Assembly (NCBI GenBank): GCA_030765805.1
Contig: JAVCDH010000070.1
Coordinates: 1 to 35,179 of the forward strand
Direction: 5' to 3'
Length of the DNA stretch: 35,179 nucleotides
Origin: Candidatus Euphemobacter frigidus
GTDB taxonomy: Bacteria > Auribacterota > Erginobacteria > Erginobacterales > Erginobacteraceae
Below the pieces are notes generated by a model, which did no database searches, had not been told where the DNA came from, and worked only from the letters and a program-made list of their open reading frames with translations. Below, piece by piece: positions 2,587 through 23,214 of this stretch. The translations under genes and the position numbers were made by a program. Numbering within the stretch: position 1 is the stretch's first letter; the number at the start of each line of letters is the position of its first letter.

Positions 2587-2597
2587 GGGGATAGCCT

Positions 2598-3609: not shown

Positions 3610-3627
3610 ATAGCTGAGGAGGTAGTT

Positions 3628-4017
3628 ATGAATAGTCATTACCGCAGGGAGGAGAGGAGCCGGAAGTCTACTCTCTCTTTCATGAAAGGTTGCTGGATAC
3701 TTCTGGCAGTCGGGTTCGGGCTGAGCATGACCTACCTCTGGCTCTATTCTCACGTCATGGAAGCCAGTAATTCTCTAAAATCGTTTGAGAATAAATTGAG
3801 TTACCTCCGGGGCCGCAGCCTTTCCCTCCAGAGCCGGTTGGCCAATCTGCAGACACCGGAGGTAATAATTCGAAGGCTTGAGGAGTTCCAGATTGCCCTG
3901 GTCGATCCATATTCAGACCAGATCGTTCGTATCCGGCAGCAGGAGAGGGCTCCGGTCAAAGAGATCGTTCACGGGCGTCCACCCCGGGATCTTGTTATCT
4001 TGAGTATAGCCCGCTGA
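3628..4017 (+). CDS. ftsL: FtsL-like septal membrane protein
   Basis: A small bitopic protein of 129 residues: a basic cytoplasmic tail (1-20), one transmembrane helix (~21-41), then a periplasmic heptad-rich coiled coil (~45-75) and a tail that includes a PEVIIRRLEEF segment. This is the architecture of FtsL, which with FtsB and FtsQ activates FtsW/FtsI at the septum. FtsL sequences are poorly conserved, so the call rests on topology and on its place between rsmH and ftsI. A strong GAGGAGGT ribosome site precedes the ATG. Confidence 0.75.
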   Translation: MNSHYRREERSRKSTLSFMKGCWILLAVGFGLSMTYLWLYSHVMEASNSLKSFENKLSYLRGRSLSLQSRLANLQTPEVIIRRLEEFQIALVDPYSDQIVRIRQQERAPVKEIVHGRPPRDLVILSIAR

Positions 4018-4036
4018 GTCTCTCTCTTTAAAATTG

Positions 4037-7245: not shown

Positions 7246-7257
7246 TTGATTGGAGCT

Positions 7258-8655
7258 ATGGAGTCCCAGGAACTACAGACGATTACGGACTGGACCGGGG
7301 GGAGTTTACTGAAAGGGGATCCGTCCGCCCGGGTCGCGGGAATCAGCACTGACAGTCGGAGGGTGAGACCGGGAGAATTGTTTCTGGCTCTACGGGGGGA
7401 GAGGTTCGATGGGCATGATTTTGCCGCCGCCGCGTTAAGTAAAGGCGCGGCCGGAGTAATCCTGGATCACCCGGTCCCGGAGATCGATACCCGGTATGCC
7501 GGGAAGGCCCTGATCAGAGTGGAAGATACCCTCCAGGCCCTGGCCGGCTTGGCCCGGGGCTACCGCGCACTCTTTGATATCTTGGCGGTGGCCGTAACCG
7601 GCAGCAACGGAAAGACCACAACCAAGAATTTGATTGGTCGGTTGCTGGACGCGGATATGAAGACGCTCACCGCCCCGGCCAGCTATAATAACCTGATCGG
7701 GGTCTCTCTGACCGTTCTCCGGATCGAGAGGAACCATCAGGCGGTGGTCTTCGAAGTAGGAATGAACCGGCCCGGTGAAATCGGAGAACTGGGAGAGATC
7801 TGTCGTCCCCGGATCGCGGTGGTTACCAATGTGGGACCGGCCCATATCGGTAACCTCGGGAGCCTGGAAAAGATTGCCCGGGAGAAGGCCGAACTGTTCA
7901 AGTCACTGGAGGGAGAAAAAACGGCATTTTTAAATATCGATGATCACCGGGTTAGAGCTATGGCTCGGAGTGCCCCAGGGCCGGTGATCGGGTTCGGCTT
8001 TGACCCATCCGCGCAGGTCCGGGCCAGCAACTTAAGCTATCTACCGGATGGTGTGAAATTTGACCTAAACCTGGCGGATGAAAGGATGACGATTCATTCA
8101 CCGCTGCCGGGACGATATAATGTTTATAACCTGCTGGCCGCTCTGGGGGTGGCCGATCACCTGCATATCTCCCCGGCCCGGATGAAGGAGGCGATATCGA
8201 AGGCCGATCTCCCGTCCCAACGCATGGAAGAGGTGGTGATCGAGGGAGTGTTGCTGATTGATGACGCCTATAACGCGAATCCGGCCTCGATGAGAGCCGC
8301 CCTGGATAGCTGGCTGATGATGAAGGTCAAAGGGCGGAGAGTCATGGTCAGCGGAGACATGCATGAGCTGGGAGAGTTCTCCCGGGCCGAACATCAGGCC
8401 TGGGGAGAGGAACTGGGTGAGTCGGCGCTGGATTATCTGATTTTTCTTGGTCCCTGGTCGCGATATTCCGCCCGGGCCGCGGAAGAGAAAGGGTTCCCCG
8501 ACCGGAGAATATTCGCCGTCGACGACTCTCAAACGGTGGCGGAGTTGCTTCGGGGTATTCTTCAACCGGGAGACAGCGTCCTTATCAAGGGCTCCCGGGT
8601 GATGAAGATGGAGGAGATCGTGGAGAGATTGAAAGGATCAACGACGTATGAATAA
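7258..8655 (+). CDS. murF: UDP-MurNAc-tripeptide:D-Ala-D-Ala ligase MurF
   Basis: This enzyme adds the D-Ala-D-Ala dipeptide (made by Ddl) to the UDP-MurNAc-tripeptide. Seen in order: STDSRRVRPGELFLALRGE, shortened here to the diagnostic TDSRxVxPGxLFxAL stretch, GERFDGHDF, the ATP loop VTGSNGKTTTKN (~residues 114-125), GMNRPGEIGEL, and DDAYNANPASM in the C-terminal domain. All are MurF hallmarks. From ATG 7258 the product is 465 residues. A TTG at 7246, immediately after the murE stop, would add four residues. Neither start has a well-spaced Shine-Dalgarno, so the exact start is uncertain. Confidence 0.92.
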   Translation: MESQELQTITDWTGGSLLKGDPSARVAGISTDSRRVRPGELFLALRGERFDGHDFAAAALSKGAAGVILDHPVPEIDTRYAGKALIRVEDTLQALAGLARGYRALFDILAVAVTGSNGKTTTKNLIGRLLDADMKTLTAPASYNNLIGVSLTVLRIERNHQAVVFEVGMNRPGEIGELGEICRPRIAVVTNVGPAHIGNLGSLEKIAREKAELFKSLEGEKTAFLNIDDHRVRAMARSAPGPVIGFGFDPSAQVRASNLSYLPDGVKFDLNLADERMTIHSPLPGRYNVYNLLAALGVADHLHISPARMKEAISKADLPSQRMEEVVIEGVLLIDDAYNANPASMRAALDSWLMMKVKGRRVMVSGDMHELGEFSRAEHQAWGEELGESALDYLIFLGPWSRYSARAAEEKGFPDRRIFAVDDSQTVAELLRGILQPGDSVLIKGSRVMKMEEIVERLKGSTTYE

Positions 8656-8677
8656 AGTTATTTAAAAAGGATTCCTC

Positions 8678-9778
8678 ATGTTCTATTACATCTTTTATCC
8701 GCTCCGGGAAGTCTGGTTCGGATTCAACATCTTTAAATACATTACCTTCCGGGCCGGCTGCGCGGCGGTAATGGCGTTTTTAATCACGGTGATCTTCGGC
8801 AAACCGATTATCGCCAAACTAAAATCCCTCAAGGTAGGAGAGCACATCCGGAGCGGGAAGTATTATGAGGACCTTCATGAACGTCACAAGGGAAAAGAAG
8901 GCACGCCCACTATGGGGGGGCTGATTATTCTTCTGGCGGTAATGCTGGCCACTCTCTTCTGGGCCCGCTTAGCAACACTCCAGGTCCAGGTGATCATTAT
9001 CTCTTCCTTATGGCTGGGAGTGATCGGTTTTATCGACGACTGGATCAAACTCCGGGGGTTCGGGAAGAGGGGGCTTTCGGGAAAGGTCAAACTGGCCGGT
9101 CAGGTTATTCTGGGGTTAGGGATCGGTCTCTATCTACTTTACCACCCGGAGACCGGTTCGTATGCCGGGCATCTTCGGATACCATTTTATAAGTATGTTC
9201 TGCATGATATCGGGATTTTTTCCGTACTGTTCACGATCCTGGTTCTGGTCGGCAGTACCAACGCGGTTAACCTGACCGACGGCCTTGATGGTCTGGCGAT
9301 TGGCTGTCTCTCCATCGCCGCGTTGGCTTTCGCCGCTCTGGCATATGTCAGTGGCCATGCCCAGTTTGCCAAGTACCTCCAGATACTATATATCCCCGGG
9401 GCGGGTGAGTTGACTGTCTTCTGTGCCGCTCTGGGAGGGGCCGGTCTGGGCTTTCTCTGGTTCAACGCCTATCCGGCTCAAGTCTTCATGGGGGACACCG
9501 GGGCTCTGGCCTGCGGGGGAGCGATCGGAACGGTGGCGGTCTTAATAAAGAAAGAGCTTTTCCTGATCCTGATCGGCGGAGTTTTTGTTGTTGAGGCGAT
9601 CTCGGTTATTCTTCAGGTCTTGTCTTTTAAATTAAGGGGACGCCGCGTTTTTAAGATGGCGCCTCTCCATCACCATTTTGAGATGAAACATATCCCGGAG
9701 ACCAAGATAACCGTCCGGTTCTGGATCTGTGCGGTCATCTCCGCGTTGATCGGCCTGGGAGCGCTGAAGATGAGATAA
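8678..9778 (+). CDS. mraY: Phospho-N-acetylmuramoyl-pentapeptide transferase MraY
   Basis: A 366-residue polytopic inner-membrane enzyme (about ten hydrophobic helices) that moves phospho-MurNAc-pentapeptide onto undecaprenyl phosphate to make lipid I. It shows the catalytic or Mg2+-binding signatures of the family: KEGTPTMGG near residue 72, FIDDWIK (~114), NAVNLTDGLDGLA (~198), FMGDTGALACGG (~272) and the PLHHHFE loop (~334). The length is typical (~360). ATG 8678 lies 22 bp after murF with a weak AAGGA-like site. It is the membrane step between MurF and MurG. Confidence 0.96.
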   Translation: MFYYIFYPLREVWFGFNIFKYITFRAGCAAVMAFLITVIFGKPIIAKLKSLKVGEHIRSGKYYEDLHERHKGKEGTPTMGGLIILLAVMLATLFWARLATLQVQVIIISSLWLGVIGFIDDWIKLRGFGKRGLSGKVKLAGQVILGLGIGLYLLYHPETGSYAGHLRIPFYKYVLHDIGIFSVLFTILVLVGSTNAVNLTDGLDGLAIGCLSIAALAFAALAYVSGHAQFAKYLQILYIPGAGELTVFCAALGGAGLGFLWFNAYPAQVFMGDTGALACGGAIGTVAVLIKKELFLILIGGVFVVEAISVILQVLSFKLRGRRVFKMAPLHHHFEMKHIPETKITVRFWICAVISALIGLGALKMR

Positions 9779-9798
9779 GATAGAGGATTGATTTATCG

Positions 9799-11157
9799 AT
9801 GCTCATGCATTTATCAGGGAAAAAAGTTGTAGTTCTGGGGCTGGGCGTGAGCGGAGAGGCGGCGGCCGAACTGTTGCTGAGAGAAGGAGCGGTGGTTACC
9901 GTTCTTGATGACGACGATACCTCCGAATTGAGAAACCGGGCCGGGCAGCTGCGGAGAAAGGGGGCGGTGGTATCACTGGGGAGGGAGGGAGAAAGGAACG
10001 GGGATTTCTTTGAAATGTTGGTCCTGAGTCCCGGTATTCCGTGGTCACATCGGGTAATCCGGAGGGCTCGGGAAGAAGAGATCCCGGTTCTGGCTGAGAT
10101 TGAGCTGGCCGCTCGATTGCTGAATCGGCCTTTGATCGCTGTTACCGGAACCAATGGGAAGACCACCACAGTCAGTCTGCTCTCTGATATCTTCCGGCGT
10201 GGTGGAATGCCCTGCGTAACGGGGGGGAATATCGGCTACCCCCTTTCTCGGGTAGTCCTGGAGGGAGAAGAGAATTCGCTGATTGTGGTCGAGGTCAGTT
10301 CATTTCAACTGGATGGGATCGAGACGTTTCGTCCGTCAATCGCGGCTCTCTTGAATCTCACTCCCGATCACTTGGACCGGTACCGGGTGATGGCGGCTTA
10401 CCGGGCGGCGAAGTTGCGTCTTTTCGAGAACCAGGGAGAGGGCGACCGGGCCGTGATGCCGGATAGCCTCCGGCTCTTGCTGGAGTCGGCGGTACCGCCG
10501 GCAGTGGAGAAGATAATCTGGGGAGGGAAGGCCGGGATGGTCCGGAGCGAAGGTGAGGCCATCTGGACGAACCTCCCCGGACGGCGGGAGAGAATATGCG
10601 GAATGAACGAGATCGCCCTTCCCGGCCGTCATAATCTGGAGAATGTGATGGCAGCCGCCACCATCGCCTTGATCAAGGGGGTAGGGGAGAAGGTAATCGG
10701 GGAGGCAATTCGTTCTTTTGCCGGGCTCCCTCACCGGTTGGAGTATGTTGCCTCCCCCTTAGGAGTTCGGTTTTATAATGACTCTAAAGCTACCAATCCC
10801 GGGGCGGTAGCGGCGGCCCTGGGGTCATTTGAGCGGCCGATTATCTGGCTGGCCGGAGGGAGCGACAAGGGTCTGGACTTTTCTCCCTTGAAGCCGCTTC
10901 TTCGGGGTTCGGTTAAACTGGCGCTCTTGATGGGGGAGAGCCGGGAGAAGTTGCGGGAGGTGGTGGAAGGCGAGGTTCCCTTCCAGACGGTCTCCGGCCT
11001 GGAAGAGGCCGTCCCCATAGCCTTGCGGAGCGCGGAACCAGGAGATGTTGTTCTCCTCTCTCCCGGTTGCGCCAGTTTTGATATGTTTAAGAGTTATCAG
11101 GAAAGAGGGGAGATTTTCAAATACTTGGTGAATAACCAACTATTACCAGGAGGCTGA
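9799..11157 (+). CDS. murD: UDP-N-acetylmuramoyl-L-alanine:D-glutamate ligase MurD
   Basis: A 452-residue cytoplasmic ligase that adds D-Glu to UDP-MurNAc-L-Ala. The N-terminal Rossmann domain starts KKVVVLGLGVSGEAA. SPGIP (~77-81) is typical, as is the ATPase loop VTGTNGKTTT (~115-124), then VEVSSFQL, NLTPDHLDRY, and in the third domain YNDSKATNPGAV and LLSPGCASFDMF. All are MurD signatures in the expected order. An alternative in-frame ATG lies two codons downstream. The next gene starts 3 bp after the stop. Confidence 0.95.
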   Translation: MLMHLSGKKVVVLGLGVSGEAAAELLLREGAVVTVLDDDDTSELRNRAGQLRRKGAVVSLGREGERNGDFFEMLVLSPGIPWSHRVIRRAREEEIPVLAEIELAARLLNRPLIAVTGTNGKTTTVSLLSDIFRRGGMPCVTGGNIGYPLSRVVLEGEENSLIVVEVSSFQLDGIETFRPSIAALLNLTPDHLDRYRVMAAYRAAKLRLFENQGEGDRAVMPDSLRLLLESAVPPAVEKIIWGGKAGMVRSEGEAIWTNLPGRRERICGMNEIALPGRHNLENVMAAATIALIKGVGEKVIGEAIRSFAGLPHRLEYVASPLGVRFYNDSKATNPGAVAAALGSFERPIIWLAGGSDKGLDFSPLKPLLRGSVKLALLMGESREKLREVVEGEVPFQTVSGLEEAVPIALRSAEPGDVVLLSPGCASFDMFKSYQERGEIFKYLVNNQLLPGG

Positions 11158-11160
11158 AAT

Positions 11161-11586
11161 ATGAATAAACCTAAGATGATCCTGTACGCCGGCCTGGGGT
11201 CTCTGGTTTCGGTATTGATCTGGAGTTTCATCGGGGGTTGCCATACTACCCCGGATCAGACGAAGGAACCGACCCGGGTTGAATCAGCTTTGATTGAGAA
11301 GAAGGCTCCGGCGGCGGTTGAGACCGAGGAGGCCCTGATCGAAGAAGGCATTTTAGAGGAGAAGAAACCAAAAAATCCGCTGGAGGGGGAGAAGCCCCCG
11401 GTCGCGTTAGCTCCGGCTGAGCCTTCTTCGCCGGTACCGCAAACTCGGATCCATACGGTCAGTAAGGGGGATACGCTCTGGGCGATCAGCCGTCGGTATC
11501 ACGTCAGCGTTCAGGCAATCCAGGAGGCCAACGGAATCTCAGAGCCCGATCGGCTCTCAATCGGCCAGCAACTGCGGATACCTTAA
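11161..11586 (+). CDS. LysM-domain lipoprotein
   Basis: The 141-residue precursor has a hydrophobic signal segment ending in IGGC, with Cys27 as probable lipidation site for the Lgt pathway (lgt itself is at 27999-28823). A flexible linker rich in Glu, Pro, Ala and Lys (~30-95) follows. A single LysM domain ends the protein (~97-141: HTVSKGDTLWAIS, then YHVSVQAIQEANG and LSIGQQLRIP), which binds N-acetylglucosamine in peptidoglycan. The lipobox is imperfect (Gly at -2). The gene sits between murD and ftsW with an AGGAGG site just before the ATG, so it is probably made together with the division machinery. It has no catalytic domain and may tether or bridge envelope layers at the septum. Confidence 0.82.
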   Translation: MNKPKMILYAGLGSLVSVLIWSFIGGCHTTPDQTKEPTRVESALIEKKAPAAVETEEALIEEGILEEKKPKNPLEGEKPPVALAPAEPSSPVPQTRIHTVSKGDTLWAISRRYHVSVQAIQEANGISEPDRLSIGQQLRIP

Positions 11587-11592
11587 ATAAAT

Positions 11593-11667
11593 TAGCCCCG
11601 GGCGGGGCAAATTTGGGGAATAGGGATTCGGGAATAGGGATTGGTTCACCCAATTCCTATAAGATGT
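11593..11667. repeat. Intergenic hairpin plus GGGAATAGGGATT direct repeats
   Basis: The gap between the LysM gene and ftsW holds a GC hairpin (GCCCC/GGGGC around 11595-11608), two tandem copies of GGGAATAGGGATT (14-bp period, ~11616-11643) and an inverted near-copy (CCAATTCCTAT, 11650-11660) that can pair with the second repeat at 10 of 11 positions. It interrupts an otherwise tightly packed operon. No T-run follows, so it is not a clear terminator. Confidence 0.5.
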
Positions 11668-11713
11668 TGCCTATTCAATAGTTTTATTGAAATTCCGAAG
11701 CAGGAATATAGCC

Positions 11714-12874
11714 ATGCAGATCAATTATCTAAAGACGATTCTTATCTTCCTGGTTGCAGTCCTCCTCGGGGTTGGGCTGATGATGATTTACAGCAGCAGT
11801 ACTATCTATGCTTTGGATAAATATGGTGACAGCTATTTTTTTTTAAAACGCCAGCTGCTCTGGCTGGGAGCCGGGATAGTTCTTTTTTTTCTCACCGCCC
11901 GGACGGACTATCACTGGCTTCAGAAGAAGAGTCGTTTGATGCTCATTCTGGGGGTGATCCTTCTGGTTGCCGTTTTTATCCCCGGGTTAGGACGGAGCGG
12001 AGGAGGGGCCCGGCGTTGGTTGAGATTGGGCGGGTTTGGCTTTCAACCGTCGGAACTGGTAAAATACCTGGTGATCGTTTATCTGGCCGATCTTCTCTCC
12101 CGTCGCCAGAAGACGATCGATCGGTTTTTCTCGGGCTTCCTCCCCCCCCTGTTGGTAATCGGGGGCCTCTCCGGGCTGATAGTCATCCAGCCGGACCTGG
12201 GGTCCGCCCTCATCCTCGTGGTTATCGGGATTTTGATGCTCTATCTGGGAGGCGCGCGATTGGCCCATCTGGGGCTACTCTGTTTAACGGCTTTGCCTGC
12301 GCTGACGCTTCTAATTACGCGGGTCGGATATCGCAAGAGGAGAATTCTGGCCTTTATCAATCCCTGGGCCGATCCCAGGGGGATAGGGTTCCAGATCATT
12401 CAATCCTTGATCGCGCTCGGCTCGGGAGGGCCGACGGGCTTAGGCCTGGGGGAGAGCCGCCAGAAGCTCTTTTATCTCCCCGCCGCCACCACTGATTTTA
12501 TCTTCTCCATTCTGGGAGAGGAGCTTGGTTTTGCCGGTACCGGCCTGGTGATCATTCTGATCGTTGGTCTGCTGATCGTCGGTTTCGCGATTGCCCGGAG
12601 AGCCGATGATCTTTTCGGGAGTCTCCTGGCCCAGGGGATTACCGCGATGCTGGTCCTCCAGGCCATGATTAACATGGGTGTCTCGGCGGGTATTTTGCCG
12701 ACCAAGGGATTGCCGTTCCCCTTCGTCAGTTACGGAGGTTCGAATCTCATCGTCAGTTTTCTGGCGGTGGGTATCCTGGTCAATATCGCCACCTACCAGG
12801 AGAGAGAGTGCCGCTATAGCCGGCGGCGTGCCCCGGACTATATCTTTAGCCCGGAGAAAAAGGAGTTGAAGTAA
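11714..12874 (+). CDS. ftsW: Septal peptidoglycan glycosyltransferase FtsW (SEDS)
   Basis: A 386-residue protein with about ten transmembrane helices that polymerises lipid II at the septum with FtsI. Signatures include MIYSSSTIYAL in the first helix region, GGARRWLRLGGFGFQPSEL (~100-118), the large periplasmic loop with FINPWADPRGIGFQIIQS, and the C-terminal GILPTKGLPFPFVSYGGSN, all typical of SEDS proteins of the FtsW/RodA class. Its place between murD and murG marks it as FtsW. ATG 11714 has AGGA 8 nt upstream and is preferred over an upstream in-frame TTG (11687). The stop overlaps the murG start by 1 bp (TAATG). Confidence 0.94.
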   Translation: MQINYLKTILIFLVAVLLGVGLMMIYSSSTIYALDKYGDSYFFLKRQLLWLGAGIVLFFLTARTDYHWLQKKSRLMLILGVILLVAVFIPGLGRSGGGARRWLRLGGFGFQPSELVKYLVIVYLADLLSRRQKTIDRFFSGFLPPLLVIGGLSGLIVIQPDLGSALILVVIGILMLYLGGARLAHLGLLCLTALPALTLLITRVGYRKRRILAFINPWADPRGIGFQIIQSLIALGSGGPTGLGLGESRQKLFYLPAATTDFIFSILGEELGFAGTGLVIILIVGLLIVGFAIARRADDLFGSLLAQGITAMLVLQAMINMGVSAGILPTKGLPFPFVSYGGSNLIVSFLAVGILVNIATYQERECRYSRRRAPDYIFSPEKKELK

Positions 12875-13965
12875 TGAAGCTGGCATTCGCGGGAGGAGGA
12901 ACCGGGGGTCATCTCGCTCCCGCTCTTGCTCTTCTGGAGGAGCTGCGGGCCCGGGGAGATGATTCTCCGGTTATCTTTCTGACCGACGGCCGGGCCGCTC
13001 CGGATGTGGTCCGGCAGGTTCGAATCTCCGCGGCGAGTTTCTCTTTCAGGAGATGGTGGTCGATCCCCGCCGGGCTCATCCGGAACTACCGGGGGTATCG
13101 GCGCGGTCGGTCGGAACTGGCCGCCGCTTGTCCTGATCTGGTGGTGGGCCTGGGGGGGTATGTCTCGGTCCCGACGGTTCTGGCTGCCCGGCGGCTGAAG
13201 ATACCTATCGTTCTTCATGAACAGAACGCGGTGCTGGGGCGCGCCAACCGTTTTTTATCCCGTTTCGCTTCCCGGGTGATCGGAAGTTTCCCCCTCCCGG
13301 TGAGGGAAGGGGGTGGTCCGGACCCGATCCGGACGGGATTTCCCATCCGCCGCGCGGTCCGGGCTGAGGCCCCGGAGAGCACCGCCTCCGGTTGGGGTTT
13401 GGAGGAAGGCCGGTTTACCATCCTGGTCCTGGGTGGGAGTCGGGGGGCGCGGGCGGTCAACCGGCTGGCGGTGGAGACGATCCAAGACTTTCGGGATGAG
13501 GCGGATAACCTGCAATTCATTCATTGCGCCGGACGGGAGGATGTCGGGGTTTTGGAACGTGCCTATCGGAAGGCCGGGGTACCGGCCGCCGTATTCGACG
13601 CCCTGGAGACAATTGGATGGGCGTACAGCCTGGCTGACCTGGTAGTCGGGAGGGCGGGGGGCGCCACCTTGAGCGAGATCGCGTATTGGCGTCTACCGTC
13701 GATCTTGATCCCGTATCCGTGGGCGACCGACGCGCACCAACGAGCCAACGCCCGATACTTTCAGGGGGCCGGCGCGGCCCTGGTCTATGAGCAGGATGAG
13801 GTGAGTACTTCACTTCTGGTCGAGAGCGTACTCCGGCTTAAGGAGGACCGGGAAGAACGGGAGCGGATGTCGCGTGCCGCCGGGACCCTGTACATCTCCG
13901 GGGGGGCGGGCAGGATGCTTGATATTTTCCAGGAAGTGATCGAGGAGAAGCATGAAACCGGATGA
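12874..13965 (+). CDS. murG: UDP-GlcNAc:lipid I N-acetylglucosaminyltransferase MurG
   Basis: A 363-residue peripheral membrane GT-B enzyme that turns lipid I into lipid II. It shows the glycine-rich lipid/donor loop GGGTGGHLAPA (7-17), HEQNAVLGRANRFL (~114), LGGSRGARAVN in the second domain (~188), VVGRAGGATLSEI (~257) and the PYPWATDAHQRANA donor-site segment (~281). A ribosome site AAGGAG lies 9 nt before the ATG. It overlaps ftsW by 1 bp and murC by 14 bp, so the three are translationally linked. Confidence 0.95.
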   Translation: MKLAFAGGGTGGHLAPALALLEELRARGDDSPVIFLTDGRAAPDVVRQVRISAASFSFRRWWSIPAGLIRNYRGYRRGRSELAAACPDLVVGLGGYVSVPTVLAARRLKIPIVLHEQNAVLGRANRFLSRFASRVIGSFPLPVREGGGPDPIRTGFPIRRAVRAEAPESTASGWGLEEGRFTILVLGGSRGARAVNRLAVETIQDFRDEADNLQFIHCAGREDVGVLERAYRKAGVPAAVFDALETIGWAYSLADLVVGRAGGATLSEIAYWRLPSILIPYPWATDAHQRANARYFQGAGAALVYEQDEVSTSLLVESVLRLKEDREERERMSRAAGTLYISGGAGRMLDIFQEVIEEKHETG

Positions 13966-15346
13966 GATGATAACGGTATTGGGACGGTCGGGAATAGAGA
14001 CCATCCACTTTGTCGGGATCGGGGGAGCCGGGATGAGTCCCCTGGCCCGGATTATGTTGACGCTTGGTTGCGGAGTAACCGGATCCGACCTGGGGAGGAA
14101 TCAGGTTATCGAGCGGCTCACCAAGCTCGGCGCCCGCGTTGCCCGGGTCCATCGAAGGGATAATCTCGGCTCGGCCGACCTGGTAGTCTATTCTTCCGCC
14201 GTTCGCCCGGATAATCCGGAATTATCCGCGGCCCGGGAGGGCGGGATCCCGATCATCCACCGGTCGGAACTTCTTGCCGGTCTGATGCGGTTGAAGAAGG
14301 GGATCGCGGTGGCCGGTAGTCACGGGAAGACCTCCACCGCGGCTATGATTGCCTGGATCCTGGTTAAGGCCGGGCTCCAGCCGGGGCTGGCCCTGGGCGG
14401 AGAAGTGATCGGCCTGGAAGAGGATGACGGCTGGTCCGACGGTACATGGCTGGTCGCTGAGGCGGACGAGAGTGATGGCTCTCTGGAAAGGCTGAACCCG
14501 GCCCGGGAAGTGATTACCGGACTTGACCTTGACCATGTTGATTACTATCCAGATTGGGAAAAGCTGATCGAAACATTCCGGCGGTTCACGAGACGCCTCT
14601 CGCCGGATGGGATACTGGTTATTAAAGCGGATACCCGGGATATTGATCTTCTGATAGAATATCCCCGAAAGGTGGTGACCTACGGTTTGCATCCGTCCGC
14701 CCGGGTCCGGGGAATCCGGGTCCGGGCGGAAGGGATCGGGAGCCGGTTTGGTGTCGAACGAGACGGCAGTGAGCTGGGAGAGGTCACCCTCTCTCAGCTC
14801 GGGGTCTGCAATGTGGAGAACTGCCTGGGAGCGATCGCTCTCTCACTTTCGCTGGGAGTTCCCTTCCCCGACATCACGCGGGCTTTAAGCAGTTACCGGG
14901 GTGTTCGGCGGAGGCTGGAGATCAGGTCGGCCGGCCCGGTGATGATCGTAGAAGATTACGCTCATCATCCGGTTGAGGTGACGGCCGCGCTCAAGGCGGT
15001 CCGCTCCGCCTGTCCCCGCCGGCTGTGGTGTGTCTTTCAACCACATCGTTATACAAGGACGCGTCACTTTTCCCGGGAGCTGGCCGAGGCCTTACTGGCG
15101 GCCGACCGGATTATTGTGACCGATCTCTACCCCGCTTTTGAGCGGCCCCTGCCGGGCGTCAGTTCCGCTCTTCTGATGGAAGCGTTTAAAGAGCTGGGGC
15201 GGGATGGTCCGCTTTACCTGGAGCAGTCCTCCATCCGCGCCGGCCTGGAGCGGGAGGTGGAGGAGGGTGACGCGGTGGTGATCATGGGGGCCGGAGACAT
15301 TGGCCGACTGGCCGGTGAACTGGCGGAGCACCCAATAAATACTTAG
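13952..15346 (+). CDS. murC: UDP-N-acetylmuramate:L-alanine ligase MurC
   Basis: A 464-residue cytoplasmic ligase that adds the first amino acid to UDP-MurNAc. Seen: IHFVGIGGAGMSPLA (~18-32), SSAVRPDNPE, the ATP loop VAGSHGKTSTAAM (~120-132), EADESDGSL, LDHVDYY, and in the C-terminal domain VEDYAHHPVEV and FQPHRYTRT. All are MurC-specific. A GAGGAG site lies just before the ATG inside murG. The usual partner murB, commonly found next to murC, is absent: only 41 bp separate murC from ddl. Confidence 0.95.
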   Translation: MKPDEMITVLGRSGIETIHFVGIGGAGMSPLARIMLTLGCGVTGSDLGRNQVIERLTKLGARVARVHRRDNLGSADLVVYSSAVRPDNPELSAAREGGIPIIHRSELLAGLMRLKKGIAVAGSHGKTSTAAMIAWILVKAGLQPGLALGGEVIGLEEDDGWSDGTWLVAEADESDGSLERLNPAREVITGLDLDHVDYYPDWEKLIETFRRFTRRLSPDGILVIKADTRDIDLLIEYPRKVVTYGLHPSARVRGIRVRAEGIGSRFGVERDGSELGEVTLSQLGVCNVENCLGAIALSLSLGVPFPDITRALSSYRGVRRRLEIRSAGPVMIVEDYAHHPVEVTAALKAVRSACPRRLWCVFQPHRYTRTRHFSRELAEALLAADRIIVTDLYPAFERPLPGVSSALLMEAFKELGRDGPLYLEQSSIRAGLEREVEEGDAVVIMGAGDIGRLAGELAEHPINT

Positions 15347-15364
15347 TAATTCGGTAAAATTAAC

Positions 15365-15383
15365 TTTAGTCACTTTAGTCACT
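15365..15383 (+). repeat. Tandem TTTAGTCAC repeat before ddl
   Basis: Two head-to-tail copies of TTTAGTCAC lie directly upstream of the ddl start, in the place where a ribosome site would be expected. No Shine-Dalgarno is seen. It may be the remnant of a small intergenic repeat. Confidence 0.35.
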
Positions 15384-15387
15384 TCAA

Positions 15388-16332
15388 ATGATAAACCCGA
15401 AAAAATACGGCACGGTTGGAGTTCTGCTGGGCGGACCTTCCGCGGAGCGGGCGATCTCACTTAAATCGGGCAAAGCTATCTCCCGCGCCCTCCGTAAGCA
15501 CGGGATCACGGTGATCGAGATCGGGGAGAATGAGGAGATCAGGGCCGGGATCCGGGAACACCCCATCGACGTGGCGTTCATCGCCCTCCACGGGCGGTTC
15601 GGTGAAGACGGCCAGGTCCAGGAATTGCTGGAGGAGATGGATATACCGTATACCGGATCGGGGATTGAGGCCAGCCGGCTGGCCATGGATAAGGCCGCCT
15701 CCCGGCGGATCTTCGAAGCGGCGGGGTTGACAGTTCCTCCTTTCCGGGTCTTCGGACCCGGAGATGTCTGCCGGTTACCGCCCTTTTCCCTTCCGGTAGT
15801 GGTCAAGCCGGTCCGGGAAGGGTCCAGTATCGGTTTGAGCGTGGTCCGGACCCGCCGGCAGTTCGCGGAGGCTTGCACCGCCGCCCGGCGCTATGACCGG
15901 ACGATCCTGGTCGGCAAATATATCCCGGGGAAGGAGTTGACGGTCGGTGTTCTCGACCGGGAGCCCCTTCCGGTGATTGAGATTATACCCTGGAATCAGT
16001 TCTTTGATTATGAAGCCAAGTATGTCAAAGGGAAGTCGTCTTTTAAGGTTCCAGCCCCCTTACCGTCATCCGTTGGCCGGAAGGTACAGGAAGTGGGATT
16101 GACGGCTCATCGCGTTTTGGGTTGTTACGCTTATTCCCGGGCTGATATTATTCTGGGAGATGATGGGATACCCTATCTCCTGGAGGTTAACTCCATCCCC
16201 GGTTTCACCGCTACCAGCCTTTTGCCCCAGGCGGCCCGGTCGATCGGGATCGATTTCCCGGCTTTATGCTTGAGATTACTTGATCTGGCCTTGACCCGGG
16301 GCAACTACCGTAACCATGGAGGAGTGCCATGA
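15388..16332 (+). CDS. ddl: D-alanine:D-alanine ligase
   Basis: This 314-residue ATP-grasp enzyme makes the D-Ala-D-Ala used by MurF. N-terminal domain: VGVLLGGPSAERAISLKSG, shortened here to the diagnostic GGxSxERxxSLxSG pattern (~14-27). Then FIALHGRFGEDG (~69), YTGSGIEASRLAMDK (~91), the ATP-grasp VKPVREGSSIGLS (~143) and the metal site LEVNSIPG (~271-278). The length is normal (~305-320). The start ATG lacks a ribosome site. It ends in a 4-bp ATGA overlap with ftsQ. Confidence 0.94.
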   Translation: MINPKKYGTVGVLLGGPSAERAISLKSGKAISRALRKHGITVIEIGENEEIRAGIREHPIDVAFIALHGRFGEDGQVQELLEEMDIPYTGSGIEASRLAMDKAASRRIFEAAGLTVPPFRVFGPGDVCRLPPFSLPVVVKPVREGSSIGLSVVRTRRQFAEACTAARRYDRTILVGKYIPGKELTVGVLDREPLPVIEIIPWNQFFDYEAKYVKGKSSFKVPAPLPSSVGRKVQEVGLTAHRVLGCYAYSRADIILGDDGIPYLLEVNSIPGFTATSLLPQAARSIGIDFPALCLRLLDLALTRGNYRNHGGVP

Positions 16333-17159
16333 AATGGCTGATATTGAGCAGCAAGGTTAGTCCACCCCGTTCCCGTAGGAAGATGAGCGCGAAAGTCAAA
16401 CGGCGCCGGAAGAAAGTCGCCCCGCCCTCTTCCGCCCGTTCGAAGAGAGGCGCTGGAGTATGGAAGCTGGTTTTACCCCTGCTGGTCCTGGCCGTCCTGG
16501 CGGGGGGGCTCTGGTGGATCTTTTACCATTCCGAGACATTTATCGTCAGGGAGATCCGGGTAAGGAACAATCACGCTTACTCTCCGGAAGAAGTAATCGA
16601 GATCTCCGGGGTCGAGACCGGGAGGAACATCTTTGCCTTGAATCCCGCCTCCGCGCGGGAGTGTCTGCTCCGGGATGTTAATATTCGGGACGCGCGGGTG
16701 GAACGGATCTTCCCGGATGTAATCGGGGTCGAAATTGTGGAGAGGGAGCCCCGTGCCCGGGTGCAGTTCGGGCACCTTTATACCATCGATGATTGGGGCG
16801 TGATACTCGGTCCGCGGAAGAGGGCGCCGGAAACAAAACTTCCGGTTATCCGGGGTCTTCGGGTGAAGGGAGGGTCTCTCTTCCCCGCTGACAAGAGGGA
16901 AGCCTGCCTTCGCCTTCTTCGCGAACTGGAAGAGCAGGATATCGGGTCACTGGTTACTATCGCTGAGATCCGTCTCTTCTCTTCGGATTTGATTGAAATG
17001 CGGACAGAGGGAGATCTGGAGATTACACTGGGTCGGGATGATTACGGTGTACAGTTGGGAAGATTGAAGATGGTACTCGATAAACTGGGCCCCGAAGTCG
17101 CCCGGGCCCGGGGGGTTGATCTCCGCTACTCCAAAATCCCGGTCGCCTTTGATAAATGA
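16329..17159 (+). CDS. ftsQ: Cell division protein FtsQ (POTRA-domain)
   Basis: A 276-residue bitopic membrane protein. The cytoplasmic tail (1-44) is very basic (RRK, KRRRKK), followed by a transmembrane helix (~45-66) and a POTRA domain (~71-142: FIVREIRVRNN, then YSPEEVIEISGVETGRNIF), then the FtsQ beta domain starting near DDWGVILGP. FtsQ recruits and regulates FtsL/FtsB and FtsW/FtsI. Its place between ddl and ftsA is canonical. The ATG has GGAGG 7 nt upstream and overlaps the ddl stop; an in-frame ATG at 16383 has a less well-spaced site. Confidence 0.9.
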   Translation: MKWLILSSKVSPPRSRRKMSAKVKRRRKKVAPPSSARSKRGAGVWKLVLPLLVLAVLAGGLWWIFYHSETFIVREIRVRNNHAYSPEEVIEISGVETGRNIFALNPASARECLLRDVNIRDARVERIFPDVIGVEIVEREPRARVQFGHLYTIDDWGVILGPRKRAPETKLPVIRGLRVKGGSLFPADKREACLRLLRELEEQDIGSLVTIAEIRLFSSDLIEMRTEGDLEITLGRDDYGVQLGRLKMVLDKLGPEVARARGVDLRYSKIPVAFDK

Positions 17160-17168
17160 ATTTATTAA

Positions 17169-18407
17169 GTGACCCAAAAGCGAGACATAATAACCGGCCT
17201 TGACGTGGGAACGACCAAGATCTGCGCGCTGGTGGCCGAACGCGAAGAGAACGGGGACATTCGTATTCTGGGGGTGGGGACTTATCCATCGCGGGGTTTA
17301 CGGAAAGGAGAGGTAATTAATATTACCGAGGCAGTGGCCTCGATAGAAAAAGCGGTCTCCCAGGCGGAGAACATCTGTGAGTTTGAAGTTACTTCCGTTA
17401 TCGCGGGGATTACAGGAAGCCATATCCAGAGCTTCAACAGCCGGGCGGTCTTGCCGGTGGCCAACCCATCGATCGGGGTGACCCGAAAAGATATGTTCCG
17501 TGCGATTGACGCCGCTCAGGCGGTTCCACTCCCCCGCGATCGGGAGGTTCTCCATGTCATCCCGCAGGAATTCTCAGTCGATGATCGAAAAGGAATAGCC
17601 GATCCCGAAGGGATGGAAGGAGTCAGGCTGGAAGCTCAGGTTCACCTGGTGAGTGGAGAAGTCGCGGCGCGCCGAAATCTTGTTAACTGCATTACCCAGG
17701 CCGGCTTCGAGGTGGAAGAATTTGTTCTCCAGCAGTTGGCGTCCAGCCTGGCGGTGGTCCGAAAAGAGGAGCAGCAATCCGGTGTGGTGCTGGTCGATAT
17801 CGGTGGCGGAACCACTGATTATGTTTATTTCCGGGATGAAATTATTCGGCATACCAGGGTTCTGGGCGTGGGAGGGGACCATCTTACCAATGATATCAGC
17901 CTGGGGATGAAGCTTCTGCTTCGTCAGGCGGAAGAGCTTAAAAAGAAATATGGCTCGGCGTTGTCCGACCGGGTAACAGGTGATGATGAACTGGCGATTC
18001 TGGATGCTCTGGTTCGTCCCGCGACCGGTCTTTCTCGGAAGAAACTCGACCGGATCATAGAGTTGAGATTGACCGAGCTGTTTCACCTTCTTCGACGTGA
18101 TCTGGAGGAAGAGGGGCATTTTCAGAGTATCGGTTCGGGGTTGGTTCTGACCGGGGGGGGCTCCTTACAGAAGGATATCGCTGCCCTGGCCGGACAGATT
18201 ACCGGCCTGCCGGTCCGGATTGGAACCCCGTTTGGAGTCTCCGGTTTGCGGGAGATTATCGATAGCCCGATCTATTCCACCGCGGTCGGTCTGGTAAAGT
18301 ATGGATTTCTGCGTCGTTCTTCGACCGATCGTTCCCGCGGTACCGGGGATAGGGTTCCGGGGGTATTATTTAATGGGATTAAGCGTTGGCTTGACCGGTA
18401 TTTCTAA
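17169..18407 (+). CDS. ftsA: Cell division protein FtsA
   Basis: A 412-residue actin-fold ATPase that anchors FtsZ to the membrane. Phosphate loop 1 is GLDVGTTKICALVAE (~9-23). The FtsA-specific 1C (SHS2) region follows, with the VLHVIPQEFSVDD block (~122). Phosphate loop 2 is LVDIGGGTTDYVYF (~206), and the adenosine loop is LTGGGSLQKDIAALA (~321). The last residues (GIKRWLDRYF) form the amphipathic membrane-targeting helix. All expected elements are present, so this FtsA looks intact. That is notable next to the highly divergent FtsZ downstream. The start is GTG 17169, without a clear ribosome site. Confidence 0.94.
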   Translation: MTQKRDIITGLDVGTTKICALVAEREENGDIRILGVGTYPSRGLRKGEVINITEAVASIEKAVSQAENICEFEVTSVIAGITGSHIQSFNSRAVLPVANPSIGVTRKDMFRAIDAAQAVPLPRDREVLHVIPQEFSVDDRKGIADPEGMEGVRLEAQVHLVSGEVAARRNLVNCITQAGFEVEEFVLQQLASSLAVVRKEEQQSGVVLVDIGGGTTDYVYFRDEIIRHTRVLGVGGDHLTNDISLGMKLLLRQAEELKKKYGSALSDRVTGDDELAILDALVRPATGLSRKKLDRIIELRLTELFHLLRRDLEEEGHFQSIGSGLVLTGGGSLQKDIAALAGQITGLPVRIGTPFGVSGLREIIDSPIYSTAVGLVKYGFLRRSSTDRSRGTGDRVPGVLFNGIKRWLDRYF

Positions 18408-18450
18408 CATAAAATTTTTGCAGGGGAAAATTTTAATAAAGGAGTTTTAG

Positions 18451-19593
18451 ATGAATAAGTCGGCTCAAACGGAGGGAGTGAAGCAGAAGATCGCGCTCTG
18501 GGGTGTCGGTAGTTGGGGAATTCGCATCGCCGGATCAATTCAGTCGGAATATCAACAGCGGGTCGAGGTTGTAGGGGTGGATTCGGATGTGCAGTCCTTG
18601 ATTTGCTCCTCACTTGTTCATAAGATAATTATCGGTGAGAAGACAGTAAGGAGCCGGGGATTGCGGAGAGATACCGGCAAGGTTGAGAAGGCGTTCCGGG
18701 AGAGCGAAGCTAAGATCAAGAGTAAATTAGCCGATTGCCGAGCTTTGCTGATTGTCGGCGGGCTGGGCGGTGGAGTGGGGAGCGGTGTTATCCCCGCGCT
18801 CTGTAATTGTGCCCGTGAGTTGAAGATCTTCACCATAGCCTTTGTTACTCACCCGTTTAAATTTGAAGGGAAGAAGAAGAACCTGCTCTTTCAAAAGGCC
18901 CGGGAGGAGATCGAGAAGGGCCCGGTGGGTCTGGCTTGTTTTTCCCTGGATCGCCTGGTAGGGAGGATTGAAGACGACACCCCCCACGAAGAAGTTTTCC
19001 GCCATTGTGATCGCATCTTAAAAGAAGCGGTAGAGTGTATGATCTCCTATCTGACCGCGCCCCCGCAGCGGGGAGGAGATTATGCTTTATTGGAGAGCAT
19101 ATTCTCTTCTCCCGGTGAGACGGTTATGGGTATCCGGGAGGCGGCCGGACCGAACCACCTGATTACAGCGGTAAAGGGGGCGCTCTCGGCGCTCTCACTC
19201 AACGCCACCGAGTTGGGTATGATAAAAGGGGTCTTGCTCCAGCTTGAGACCGGCGGATCGATCTCCTTCCGACGGTTAGAGCAGGCGATTGGAGCGGTCT
19301 CCGGGGTGCTGAGCGAGGACGTTGACCTCCTCTATACCATTGATAAGTCTAAGGAAAAGGGGGAGAAGATTATGGTTCGGATTATGGCCGCCGGGGTCCC
19401 GGAAGAAGGGGAGAATGCTGCCGGTCAAGCTATCCCGGTCACTCTGACGGCCGATCGCCCTCCCGCCAAACAGACGGAGATTAACTTCAAGAGATTGGCC
19501 CGGGGGATGTTTGTGAATACCGATCCCACACTCTTTGAGGGGGAGGATATGGATATCCCGACCTTCGTCCGGAAAGGAGTCAGTCTGGAGTAG
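18451..19593 (+). CDS. ftsZ: Highly divergent FtsZ (tubulin-like), probably GTPase-impaired
   Basis: A 380-residue protein in the canonical ftsZ position, 43 bp after ftsA, with a strong AAAGGAG site. The FtsZ fold is recognisable: VEVVGVDSDVQSL (38-50), GGLGGGVGSG (103-112) and FVTHPFKFEGKKK (131-143) align with FtsZ VEF-AVNTDAQAL, GMGGGTGTG and VVTKPFxFEGxKR. The tail DIPTFVRK (368-375) matches the conserved C-terminal peptide that binds FtsA. Compared with the family, T1 GGGGGN is GVGSWG (18-23), T2 NTD is DSD (44-46), T3 GAGANP is lost (GLRRDTG, 70-76), and T4 GGGTGTG is GGGVGSG. The T6 Asn is Leu, and in T7 the catalytic NxDxxD becomes GGDYAL (N to G, second D to L). I infer weak or absent GTPase activity, though the alignment was made by eye. 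It could be the only FtsZ or a paralogue. Confidence 0.85.
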   Translation: MNKSAQTEGVKQKIALWGVGSWGIRIAGSIQSEYQQRVEVVGVDSDVQSLICSSLVHKIIIGEKTVRSRGLRRDTGKVEKAFRESEAKIKSKLADCRALLIVGGLGGGVGSGVIPALCNCARELKIFTIAFVTHPFKFEGKKKNLLFQKAREEIEKGPVGLACFSLDRLVGRIEDDTPHEEVFRHCDRILKEAVECMISYLTAPPQRGGDYALLESIFSSPGETVMGIREAAGPNHLITAVKGALSALSLNATELGMIKGVLLQLETGGSISFRRLEQAIGAVSGVLSEDVDLLYTIDKSKEKGEKIMVRIMAAGVPEEGENAAGQAIPVTLTADRPPAKQTEINFKRLARGMFVNTDPTLFEGEDMDIPTFVRKGVSLE

Positions 19594-19614: not shown

Positions 19615-20334
19615 ATGATTTTGATCAGGACAAGCAAATTAATACTTGGTGTGCTTCTGATCCCGGCCTGTGTTGCCGCCACTGTGGTCTTTGCCCGGGA
19701 TATTTTTCCCGTGCTGAAGATTGAGATCTGGTTCTCCGTCGGTTTATTGAGTTATCTTTTACTGTTGGCGATCTTTCAGCAGCCGATCAGGACCTATATC
19801 TTTGGCCATGAACTGACCCATATCTTGTGGGTGTGGCTGTTCGGTGGTCGGGTCAAGGGGTTTAAAGCGGCATCGACGGGCGGCGAGGTCCGAACCTCGA
19901 AATCTAATTTTTTGATCTTTCTGGCCCCGTATTTCTTTCCTCTCTACAGCGCGCTGGCGATCGCGCTATACGGGATTCTGATCCTTTTTTTTTCATTACC
20001 CCCGCTCGCGGCCCGTATCCTGAGTTTTCTGCTCGGATTTACCTGGGCGTTTCACTTTACTTTTACCTTATTTGTGCTTATCCAGGGGCAGCCCGATATC
20101 TGGGCGACCGGCCGAATCTTTTCATTTCCTCTGATCTACCTTATTAATATAGTAATCCTGGCGGTATTGATTATATTTGTCTCGCCGTCGAGATCATACG
20201 GGACCTTCTTCTCCAGTCTCTGGCAGAAGACCCAGACCGACTACCGGTATCTCTGGACCGACGGCCCCGGGATCTGCGAAAAGACTTACCACCTCTACCG
20301 GGAGAAAGTTGAGGCTCTCTTTGCCGGAAGATGA
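19615..20334 (+). CDS. Polytopic membrane protein with HExxH, M50-like putative intramembrane protease
   Basis: The 239-residue product has about six hydrophobic segments. The zinc-binding motif HELTH (65-69) lies in GHELTHILWVWLFGGRVKGF, at the end of a membrane segment. It is followed by a TGGEVRTSKS stretch and an APYFFPL segment, the layout of M50B-type (site-2-protease-like) proteins. A second motif near GQPD (158-161) might supply the third metal ligand, but it is not the classic NPDG. No PDZ domain is present. The gene starts 21 bp after ftsZ and overlaps rlpA by 4 bp (ATGA), implying co-expression. The substrate is unknown. Call: family fairly likely, activity inferred. Confidence 0.65.
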   Translation: MILIRTSKLILGVLLIPACVAATVVFARDIFPVLKIEIWFSVGLLSYLLLLAIFQQPIRTYIFGHELTHILWVWLFGGRVKGFKAASTGGEVRTSKSNFLIFLAPYFFPLYSALAIALYGILILFFSLPPLAARILSFLLGFTWAFHFTFTLFVLIQGQPDIWATGRIFSFPLIYLINIVILAVLIIFVSPSRSYGTFFSSLWQKTQTDYRYLWTDGPGICEKTYHLYREKVEALFAGR

Positions 20335-21378: not shown

Positions 21379-23214
21379 GTGACTTTTATCGAGACAGTTC
21401 AAGAACGCGTCCTGGTCGGGGACGGGGCCATGGGGACGTTGCTCCTCTCCAAGGGGATTCGTCCCCAGCAGAGTTTTGAGGCGCTCTGCCTCACAGAGCC
21501 GGCAGTGATCAGGGCGGTTCACGAAGAATACATTACCGCCGGTGCCGATCTGATCGAGACCAATACTTTTGGAGCCAACCGGTTCCGGCTGATCGCGGCC
21601 GGGTATGAGCGTCAGGTGAAAAAGATCAACCGGGCGGCCGCCACCCTGGCCCGGGAAGCCGCCGGAGATAACATCTTTGTGGCGGGATCGGTCGGAGCGA
21701 TTCCGTTCTCCCTCCGGGAGGACGGTGCGGGTTATTCTCACACCGAGGATGAGCTCTTCGATGCTTACTCCGAACAGATCGCGGCGCTCTCCGAAGGAGG
21801 GGTGGATGTTATTCTTCTTGAGACCTTTGAAGAGTGGGAGAACCTCGCTGTCGCCCTTCGTGCCGCCCGGGAGGTCACCAATCTCCCCATCATCGCCCAG
21901 ATGGCTCACTCCAACCGGGGTCTCTGCATATTCGGCCGGACCGCGGAGAAATATTGCCGCCAGGCGCTTTCGGCCGGAGCGTTTATCTTCGGGAGCAACT
22001 GCGGGGGTGGTTTTTCCTCGGTCCGGGAGGTCTTGAAAGGTGCCGCCAGGGTGGAGGGGGCGTTGCTTTCGGCGTTTCCGAATGCCGGTATACCCCAGAT
22101 GGTTCAGGGGCGTATTCTCTACCCGGCCGGACCGGAGTATTTTTCTCGGAAGTGTCTGGAGCTTCTCTCTCTCGGCGTCCGTCTGGTCGGGGGATGCTGC
22201 GGGACCACTCCCCGTCACATCAAGGCGCTTCGTCGGGCCCTTGACCGAATCGCGGATGAACCGATTCTTCTCCGCCCTTCACCCCATCCCCGAGTCTCCG
22301 CTCGTCCTCCGGAAGATATCTCCGGGGAAGGCGGCTTTCTCTCATCCCTGCGGCGGGACCGTCTGCCGATCATCGTCGAGATCGATCCCCCCGCGTCCCC
22401 CGATCTGGAGAGAGTGATTCAGGGCGCACTGGAGGTTAAGAATGCCGGCGGTGACGCGATCTCGATGGCGGACAATCCTCTGGCTTCTTTAAAGGTCAGT
22501 TCCATATGCGCCGCGGCGGTAGTCCGACGGCGGGCCGGGATCCAGGTGATACCCCATCTCACCACCCGGGATCATAATGTTCTGGGGCTGCAGTCCATCC
22601 TGCTGGGGGCCCAGGTTGTGGGGATAGAAGCCATCCTGGCGGTGACCGGGGATCCAGTCGGAAAGGGTGATCAGCCCGGCAACCGAGGGATATTCAATAT
22701 CAACAGTATCCACCTGGTAGGATTGATAGACCAGCTCAACCGCGGACACATGCTCTCGGGGAGGGCCATTGCTCGTCCGACCGATCTCTCGATCGGGGTC
22801 GCCTTCAACGCCAACGCTCCCAATTTGAAGGCGGAAGTCTTGAAACTTCGCAAGAAGGTTGACAGCGGCGCCCGTTTCGCCCTGACTCAGCCGGTCTTTA
22901 CCCCTGCACTGGTTCGTGAGGTCATGGCGGCCTGCTCCGGGATTGACATCAAGATATTTATCGGAATCTACCCGCTTATCTCGGACCGGAACGCGGAGTT
23001 CATGGAGAATGAGGTCCCGGGAATAACCATTCCCCTCGCGATCCGGGAGCGGCTCGCGGCCAGTCAGGTTCGGACCGACCAGAGCCGGATTGGTCTGGAG
23101 ATAGCCTCCGAATTGATCGACAAGATCAAAGAAGAGGTTGACGGTCTCTATCTCATCAGCCCCCTCCACCGCTGGACCATCCCCCTGGAATTGGTAAAGC
23201 GCATACGGGAGTAG
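21379..23214 (+). CDS. Bifunctional homocysteine S-methyltransferase / 5,10-methylenetetrahydrofolate reductase
   Basis: A 611-residue fusion. Residues ~1-290 form a homocysteine S-methyltransferase barrel: GDGAMGTLL (~14), ETNTFGAN (~60), and zinc ligands Cys208 (GSNCGGG) and Cys273-Cys274 (GGCCGTTPRH). Residues ~320-611 form a MetF-type reductase barrel (PIIVEIDPP, ISMADNPLAS, PHLTTRDHN, AVTGDPVGKG, FALTQPVF, IGIYPL). The same arrangement is known from Firmicute YitJ-type proteins and makes methyl-THF and passes the methyl to homocysteine. The start is GTG 21379, without a strong ribosome site; an ATG further in would cut conserved sequence. It has no B12-binding domain. Confidence 0.92.
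   Translation: MTFIETVQERVLVGDGAMGTLLLSKGIRPQQSFEALCLTEPAVIRAVHEEYITAGADLIETNTFGANRFRLIAAGYERQVKKINRAAATLAREAAGDNIFVAGSVGAIPFSLREDGAGYSHTEDELFDAYSEQIAALSEGGVDVILLETFEEWENLAVALRAAREVTNLPIIAQMAHSNRGLCIFGRTAEKYCRQALSAGAFIFGSNCGGGFSSVREVLKGAARVEGALLSAFPNAGIPQMVQGRILYPAGPEYFSRKCLELLSLGVRLVGGCCGTTPRHIKALRRALDRIADEPILLRPSPHPRVSARPPEDISGEGGFLSSLRRDRLPIIVEIDPPASPDLERVIQGALEVKNAGGDAISMADNPLASLKVSSICAAAVVRRRAGIQVIPHLTTRDHNVLGLQSILLGAQVVGIEAILAVTGDPVGKGDQPGNRGIFNINSIHLVGLIDQLNRGHMLSGRAIARPTDLSIGVAFNANAPNLKAEVLKLRKKVDSGARFALTQPVFTPALVREVMAACSGIDIKIFIGIYPLISDRNAEFMENEVPGITIPLAIRERLAASQVRTDQSRIGLEIASELIDKIKEEVDGLYLISPLHRWTIPLELVKRIRE

Follow-up and report, generated by a model that had tools for sequence, protein, structure and literature searches.

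FtsZ proteins that lack the residues of an active GTPase have a precedent in the archaea. The FtsZ of the thaumarchaeon Nitrosopumilus maritimus has lost both the GTP motif (AGKAGSA) and the T7 loop, and forms no polymers in yeast; the archaeon also has Cdv division proteins (PMC3684127). Among other cytoskeletal proteins, septins have become pseudo-GTPases several times over, changes in the assembly interface making up for the loss (PMC10731463). In the PVC group, phyla have been described as either possessing FtsZ or lacking it altogether (PMC12283558, PMC5147048), and the oddity described for FtsZ of Verrucomicrobiota (V. spinosum) is a C-terminal extension (PMC12283558). In Staphylococcus aureus FtsZ, D46, Q48, R143, N208, D210 and D213 have been named as key residues, and assembly was stopped by each of the changes D46A, R143Q, N208L, D210N and D213N (PMC8936486). 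The longitudinal contacts of the filament fall into four regions, A (H10 with the H6-H7 loop), B (S9 with T5), C (H8 with T3) and D (T7 with H1 and H2), of which A and B form a pivot area, and C and D an area of crosstalk with the gamma-phosphate (PMC8936486). The literature searched, which excluded most subscription journals, contained no description of a bacterium whose sole dcw FtsZ is a pseudo-GTPase.

The window analysed here (the whole stretch of 35,179 nucleotides) belongs to a genome of 2.26 Mb in 116 contigs, 94.7% complete, of the class Erginobacteria in Ca. Auribacterota, a member of the PVC group; membership of the PVC group had been guessed in a preliminary description made from the sequence alone. 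It carries a complete-looking dcw cluster with ftsZ at its end, directly 3' of ftsQ and ftsA:

2164 to 16332, + strand: remaining dcw cluster (mraZ, rsmH, ftsL-like, ftsI, murE, murF, mraY, murD, a lysM gene, ftsW, murG, murC and ddl), assigned by HMM for some genes and by sequence and order for others
16329 to 17159, + strand: ftsQ-like gene (weak NCBIfam FtsQ match, E 7e-5; homologues adjoin ftsA in relatives)
17169 to 18407, + strand: canonical ftsA (TIGR01174, PF14450, PF02491)
18440 to 18444, + strand: Shine-Dalgarno sequence AGGAG, read from the sequence; the ATG of ftsZ begins 6 bases downstream
18451 to 19593, + strand: ftsZ ortholog of 380 amino acids (P0001), a candidate pseudo-GTPase (PF00091, TIGR00065, PDB match, AlphaFold2 model)

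In the first of these stretches, mraZ, the ftsI-type PBP, ftsW, murC and ddl were identified by HMM and the LysM gene by a domain match; sequence and gene order gave the other identities. The ftsA product has actin-type ATP motifs and a C-terminal amphipathic helix, and its score of 398.6 bits against TIGR01174 (cut-off 175.9) bears out the earlier impression of a normal FtsA. Directly after ftsZ, positions 19615-20334 encode a membrane protein without a Pfam or NCBIfam match, with a HELTH motif as in zinc metallopeptidases, and at 21379-23214 a homocysteine S-methyltransferase and a methylenetetrahydrofolate reductase are fused in one protein. While about 40 bases separate ftsA from ftsZ in the window, about 500 do so in one relative (G002, L033 2227-2739).

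The open reading frame at 18451-19593 is a true ftsZ ortholog of Ca. Erginobacteria. Its product matches PF00091 with E 1.9e-16 (61.4 bits, cut-off 33) and TIGR00065 with E 6.6e-40, at 137.5 bits below the equivalog cut-off of 295.2; against PF12327 (FtsZ_C) it reaches 23.6 bits, just under the cut-off of 27. In a search of PDB sequences FtsZ entries rank first, that of Bacillus subtilis being best (E 9e-38). The protein is predicted still to fold as FtsZ: an AlphaFold2 model, built on a shallow alignment of 28 sequences, has a pLDDT of 82.9 and a pTM of 0.80 with a disordered linker, and the top 50 Foldseek matches to it are all FtsZ, the closest solved structures being those of B. subtilis and S. 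aureus (E 7.5e-30, TM-score at most 0.88 by target length). The FtsZ fold is likewise retained in the model of the worst case among the relatives, G003, with FtsZ first among its matches. Identity as TubZ, CetZ, BtubA/B or FtsZl was rejected, given that TubZ matches only at E ~0.05 and Tubulin_2 at E 0.21, and that the fold matches FtsZ first. A phage or plasmid origin was also rejected, phage matches reaching no more than 30% identity and not surpassing those of ordinary FtsZ.

With residues numbered as in B. subtilis FtsZ, with which the window protein stays almost perfectly in register to about residue 250, alignment places the functional elements as follows:

18502 to 18525, + strand: T1 loop GVGSWGIR (residues 18-25; GVGGGGNN in B. 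subtilis)
18580 to 18588, + strand: T2 loop DSD (44-46; NTD in B. subtilis)
18646 to 18675, + strand: T3 region VRSRGLRRDT (66-75), with GLRRDT in place of the vanished GAGANP, variable among relatives
18766 to 18786, + strand: T4 signature GGGVGSG (106-112; GGGTGTG in B. subtilis)
18853 to 18879, + strand: T5 and start of H5, PFKFEGKKK (135-143), kept
18940 to 18954, + strand: T6, FSLDR (164-168; IPNDR in B. subtilis), with Asn166 changed to Leu
18958 to 18984, + strand: H6-H7 loop VGRIEDDTP (170-178), bottom side of longitudinal contact region A (PMC8936486), unusually conserved in the clade
19063 to 19089, + strand: T7 synergy loop PQRGGDYAL (205-213; B. subtilis has NLDFAD for GGDYAL), with N208 changed to G, D210 kept and D213 changed to L
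19540 to 19578, + strand: C-terminal FtsA-binding tail GEDMDIPTFVRKG (364-376), near invariant

The alignment upholds most of what the preliminary description had read from these motifs: the T1 sequence GVGSWG, the loss of GAGANP from T3, the signature GGGVGSG, the T7 sequence GGDYAL with Leu for the second Asp, and the tail DIPTFVRK at 368-375. The DSD of T2 is indeed present, but as a defect it is mild, for D occurs there in less altered relatives too. Asp187, which had been taken for degeneration, is no such sign, Asp being usual at that position in most bacteria, B. subtilis included. The strongest changes had been overlooked, namely Asn166 to Leu in T6, the loss of Asn208 from T7, and Thr109 to Val, Leu or Ile in T4.

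These changes are a property of the whole order. It is represented by five genomes (two families, four genera) in a sample of 44 genomes of the phylum, and all five carry the altered FtsZ, the four relatives being 36-54% identical to the window's; the closest named relative is a protein of Candidatus Erginobacter occultus (53% identity). The five sequences are all that the class Erginobacteria offered for comparison, and a scan of 84,980 species, which relied on two short peptide patterns and was not exhaustive, returned only the same four relatives as matches of useful length with more than 30% identity. In 5/5 members, ftsA lies upstream of ftsZ, and ftsQ precedes ftsA in the four with enough contig. 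T1 follows the common pattern GVG[SDG][WQ]G[IV]R, T109 is replaced by Val, Leu or Ile, N166 by Leu, P165 by Ser, A82 by Phe and G295 by Thr, and both N208 and D213, the second catalytic Asp, are replaced, in every member. D210 is lost in two (G001 and G003), and in G003, the most altered, T4 reads GGAVSST, without the T4 glycines. Among 32 ordinary FtsZ of the sample, N166 is invariant, T109 is found in 97% and D213 in 94%. All five keep D46 and E139, have a basic residue in position 143 and carry the tail peptide DIPTF[VI]R, a record of its presence and not of binding; the window protein retains D46, Q48, E139 and K143, together with a T4 that is still glycine-rich.

Hydrolysis by FtsZ requires the T7 loop of one subunit and the T3 and T4 loops of the next. 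Since both sides are altered here, GTP hydrolysis has very probably been lost, a strong inference, if one drawn from sequence. Guanine binding is doubtful because Asn166, presumably the base-reading residue of the FtsZ pocket, is gone; nucleotide may still bind, given the glycine-rich T4 and the retention of E139, D46, Q48 and K143, and we infer a loss of nucleotide binding with moderate strength only. Filaments would need compensation, because in S. aureus FtsZ assembly fails when either N208 or D213 alone is lost, and such compensation is only suggested by the data.

The history of the gene is that of a burst on the stem branch followed by a new constraint, rather than of decay. On the stem branch of the clade FtsZ accumulated 1.98 changes per site, as against 0.40 for FtsA and 0.38 for RpoB (the latter in four of the five genomes), while within the clade the ratio of FtsZ to FtsA distances is 1.55, against 1.56 in ordinary pairs of similar divergence. 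In the closest pair, G001-G003, dN/dS is 0.235/0.60 = 0.39 for ftsZ and 0.163/0.64 = 0.25 for ftsA; this single unsaturated pair was used alone, the others being near saturation. The gene is now under purifying selection, somewhat looser than that on ftsA. A decaying pseudogene was rejected on the strength of this selection and of the ordinary FtsZ/FtsA ratio.

The new constraint differs from that of ordinary FtsZ in its location. The yardstick for the five members was ordinary FtsZ, drawn at random in groups of five with a matching overall identity (500 sets for the tail, T4, T6 and the H7 start, 1000 for T3, T7 and the contact regions). T3 and T7 are less conserved in the clade than in any of the 1000 sets, and T4 falls below 499 of 500. 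At the other end, T6, the tail and the start of H7 equal or surpass 498 to 500 of the 500 sets, the tail and the H7 start ranking above every one, and the H6-H7 loop is more conserved than in all 1000. Taken by contact region, pivot regions A and B are more conserved in the clade than in 999/1000 sets and crosstalk regions C and D less conserved than in 1000/1000, a picture unchanged when the most distant member is omitted. The gain in region A is due to the H6-H7 loop (0.59 vs 0.24) and not to H10 (0.37 vs 0.34), and in region D only the T7 side has been freed, not H1-H2. It should be borne in mind that the matched sets overlap and contain related sequences, that relatedness was not modelled, and that the scoring by region followed inspection of a sliding scan.

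Starting from what was observed directly, that is the sequence, the synteny, the conservation across the clade, the single copy found, the predicted fold and the shift of constraint, we infer that the ftsZ of Erginobacteria has turned into a pseudo-GTPase, which still polymerises or acts as a scaffold through nucleotide-independent longitudinal contacts while tethered by FtsA. We give this reading a probability of about 0.62; the state of hydrolysis, nucleotide binding and filaments is inferred. It agrees with the filament or scaffold of little or no GTPase activity that the preliminary description had inferred, which remains the best-supported interpretation in the absence of data on hydrolysis or binding. 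A static or FtsA-templated scaffold filament is favoured because the FtsA tail and the interface elements independent of the gamma-phosphate are both under more selection than usual. With the composite active site gone (the T7 catalytic residues, and the phosphate-handling T3 and T4 loops, changed or released from selection), treadmilling driven by GTP, like GTP hydrolysis itself, would probably be absent or very slow. The tail would tether the protein to a normal, ATP-type FtsA, and the filaments, most likely static or templated by FtsA, would be joined through the pivot contacts (H6-H7 loop/H10 and T5/S9) in place of those around the gamma-phosphate (T3/H8 and T7/H1-H2); the protein would also recruit FtsQ-L-W-I. 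Turnover of the ring would then have to come from the ATP cycle of FtsA or from septal wall synthesis. Retention of polymerisation and of a scaffold role is inferred with moderate strength, and the part of FtsA as driver of the dynamics only weakly. The broader proposal, that division throughout the order relies on an FtsZ filament which neither treadmills nor depends on nucleotide, its longitudinal interface having moved from the gamma-phosphate to the pivot contacts and its dynamics coming from FtsA or wall synthesis, is tentative, and we rate it somewhat below an even chance.

The pocket has not been free to decay, and this leaves room for a different interpretation, in which the protein is a rebuilt GTPase that still binds GTP or another nucleotide and hydrolyses it slowly by means of the residues replacing T3, T6 and T7. 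The pocket loops as a whole are richer in invariant positions than the rest of the protein (odds ratio 4.6, p 1.6e-6), T1, T5, T6 and the start of H7 are conserved in changed form, and E139, D46, Q48 and the basic residue 143 are kept. Against this, T7 and T3 vary freely between the relatives, G003 has lost its T4 glycines, and no conserved acidic replacement in T7 was found in the alignment of the five members; furthermore, the pocket's bottom face doubles as the filament interface, and that alone can account for the conservation. A rebuilt GTPase seems unlikely but is not excluded, and it deserves more credit than the explanations that follow.

Slightly less probable again, though likewise not excluded, is that FtsZ no longer polymerises and is a monomeric adaptor on its way to loss, FtsA filaments organising the septum and FtsZ being left as a regulator of FtsA. 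A tail more conserved than in ordinary FtsZ and an FtsA that evolves normally would suit such a role; the extra constraint on the H6-H7 loop, an interface element, would not, and neither would evolution that is not of the decaying kind. In favour of the adaptor, ZapA, which bridges FtsZ filaments, was not found in any of the five genomes, whereas the protein occurs in 8 further families of the phylum (f4, f7, f8, f10, f11, f13, f14 and f15); however, many genomes of the phylum whose FtsZ is ordinary lack ZapA too, and it was not found in f1, f2, f3, f5, f6, f9, f12, f16 and f17. FtsK, MreB, FtsW and the FtsI-type PBP are present, and FtsA is the only standard anchor found, with no SepF in any of the nine genomes searched.

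Both ftsA and ftsZ have disappeared from family f5 of the same phylum (two genomes, 94-95% complete): its dcw genes run to ddl and ftsQ and are then followed by unrelated genes, and neither ftsA nor ftsZ was found in the two genomes.

7163-19601 of L173 (G014:C61): f5 dcw cluster murE-murF-mraY-murD-ftsW-murG-murCB-ddl-ftsQ, seen in full
202-9521 of L174 (G007:C27): f5 dcw cluster from murG on

After ftsQ, G007 has an RNase HIII-like gene, hisS and aspS, identified by eye; MreB and FtsK are present in the family. The family is a bacterial lineage without FtsZ that belongs to neither Planctomycetota nor Chlamydiota. Its loss speaks for an adaptor heading the same way, but f5 lost ftsA along with ftsZ, which is the opposite of a takeover by FtsA. 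The preliminary description had suggested an intermediate towards loss; the losses in f5 lend this some substance, but f5 as sister of the window's order is neither shown nor rejected by RpoB (AU p 0.48), and ftsZ is under purifying selection. As regards an INTERMEDIATE state, then, loss of ftsA and ftsZ has occurred nearby, and passage through a pseudo-GTPase state has not been shown.

Other unusual FtsZ proteins occur in the phylum. Family f3, whose FtsZ looks similar, was rejected as a relative of the clade, being a separate case in which FtsA has diverged too. In its genus g5 (L036-L041) FtsZ has LSGGTGSG, a T5 of LPFYYDD (E139 to D) and D213 changed to E in T7; FtsA is fast-evolving as well (stem branches 2.12 and 2.75), and the FtsZ match is missing in 2/8 genomes. 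A moderately divergent FtsZ on a long branch (1.17) is that of Ca. Tritonobacter lacicola (G031, L045/L089), with T1 GVGGAGAAIL, T2 AAD and T7 NAELSD (D210 to E). One genome of family f4 (G028; G028:C93 and G028:C55, L027 and L042) has two FtsZ, for which contamination is not excluded: one is ordinary, its DIPTF tail missing in the alignment, and the other is family-typical, with T1 FGLGDGGIN.

That a second, ordinary FtsZ does the work of division from missing parts of the assemblies is very improbable. All five genomes are incomplete drafts assembled from metagenomes (94.7, 87, 87, 75 and 92% complete), but no second FtsZ or tubulin was found in any of them, and a copy located at random would have escaped all five with a chance of ~2e-5, as calculated from completeness. 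Moreover, the altered copy occupies the dcw operon, the normal site of an only copy, and the window genome contains one PF00091 protein, P0001. The window has no second FtsZ, as noted in the preliminary description, and a search of the genome for a canonical copy, set beforehand as a check, found none; lack of conservation in relatives had been named as a possible refutation, and relatives throughout the order have kept the gene. An error of sequencing or assembly, or a pseudogene, to which the draft, metagenome-assembled state of the genomes might point, can be set aside almost entirely, because five separate assemblies of different origin share the open frame and the replacements at fixed sites, with dN/dS below 1.

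The need of division for treadmilling driven by the FtsZ GTPase is an open question, which has so far been studied with mutants. If the pseudo-GTPase reading is true, Erginobacteria offer a natural separation of function, a scaffold without a motor, in a sole FtsZ kept under selection. One phylum that includes ordinary FtsZ, a pseudo-GTPase FtsZ and the loss of ftsA and ftsZ is also a place to study how FtsZ was lost in the PVC group.

Compared with canonical FtsZ (B. subtilis, S. aureus), the window protein shares the fold, the operon position, the FtsA-binding tail and about 28% identity, and differs in the T7 catalytic residues, the T6 Asn, the T4 Thr and the loss of T3; where the canonical signatures call for GGG-T-G-(T/S)-G in T4 and N-x-D-x-x-D in T7, it has GGGVGSG and GGDYAL and fulfils neither. 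The sampled PVC relatives with ordinary FtsZ retain the GTPase motifs. With the FtsZ-less PVC bacteria (Planctomycetota, Chlamydiota and f5) the window genome shares the superphylum and an altered division, but in those FtsZ and nearly always FtsA are missing, whereas here both are present. Septin pseudo-GTPases are likewise cytoskeletal GTPases in which hydrolysis or nucleotide binding has been lost, yet they work in hetero-oligomers with active partners, and the window genome has no partner FtsZ. The purest precedent is the FtsZ of N. maritimus, which like that of the window has lost both the GTP-binding motif and the T7 loop, the window T4 being the less degraded of the two. Unlike the archaeal protein, the window FtsZ is the only copy found in its genome, stands in a bacterial dcw operon next to an intact ftsA, and has kept its tail.
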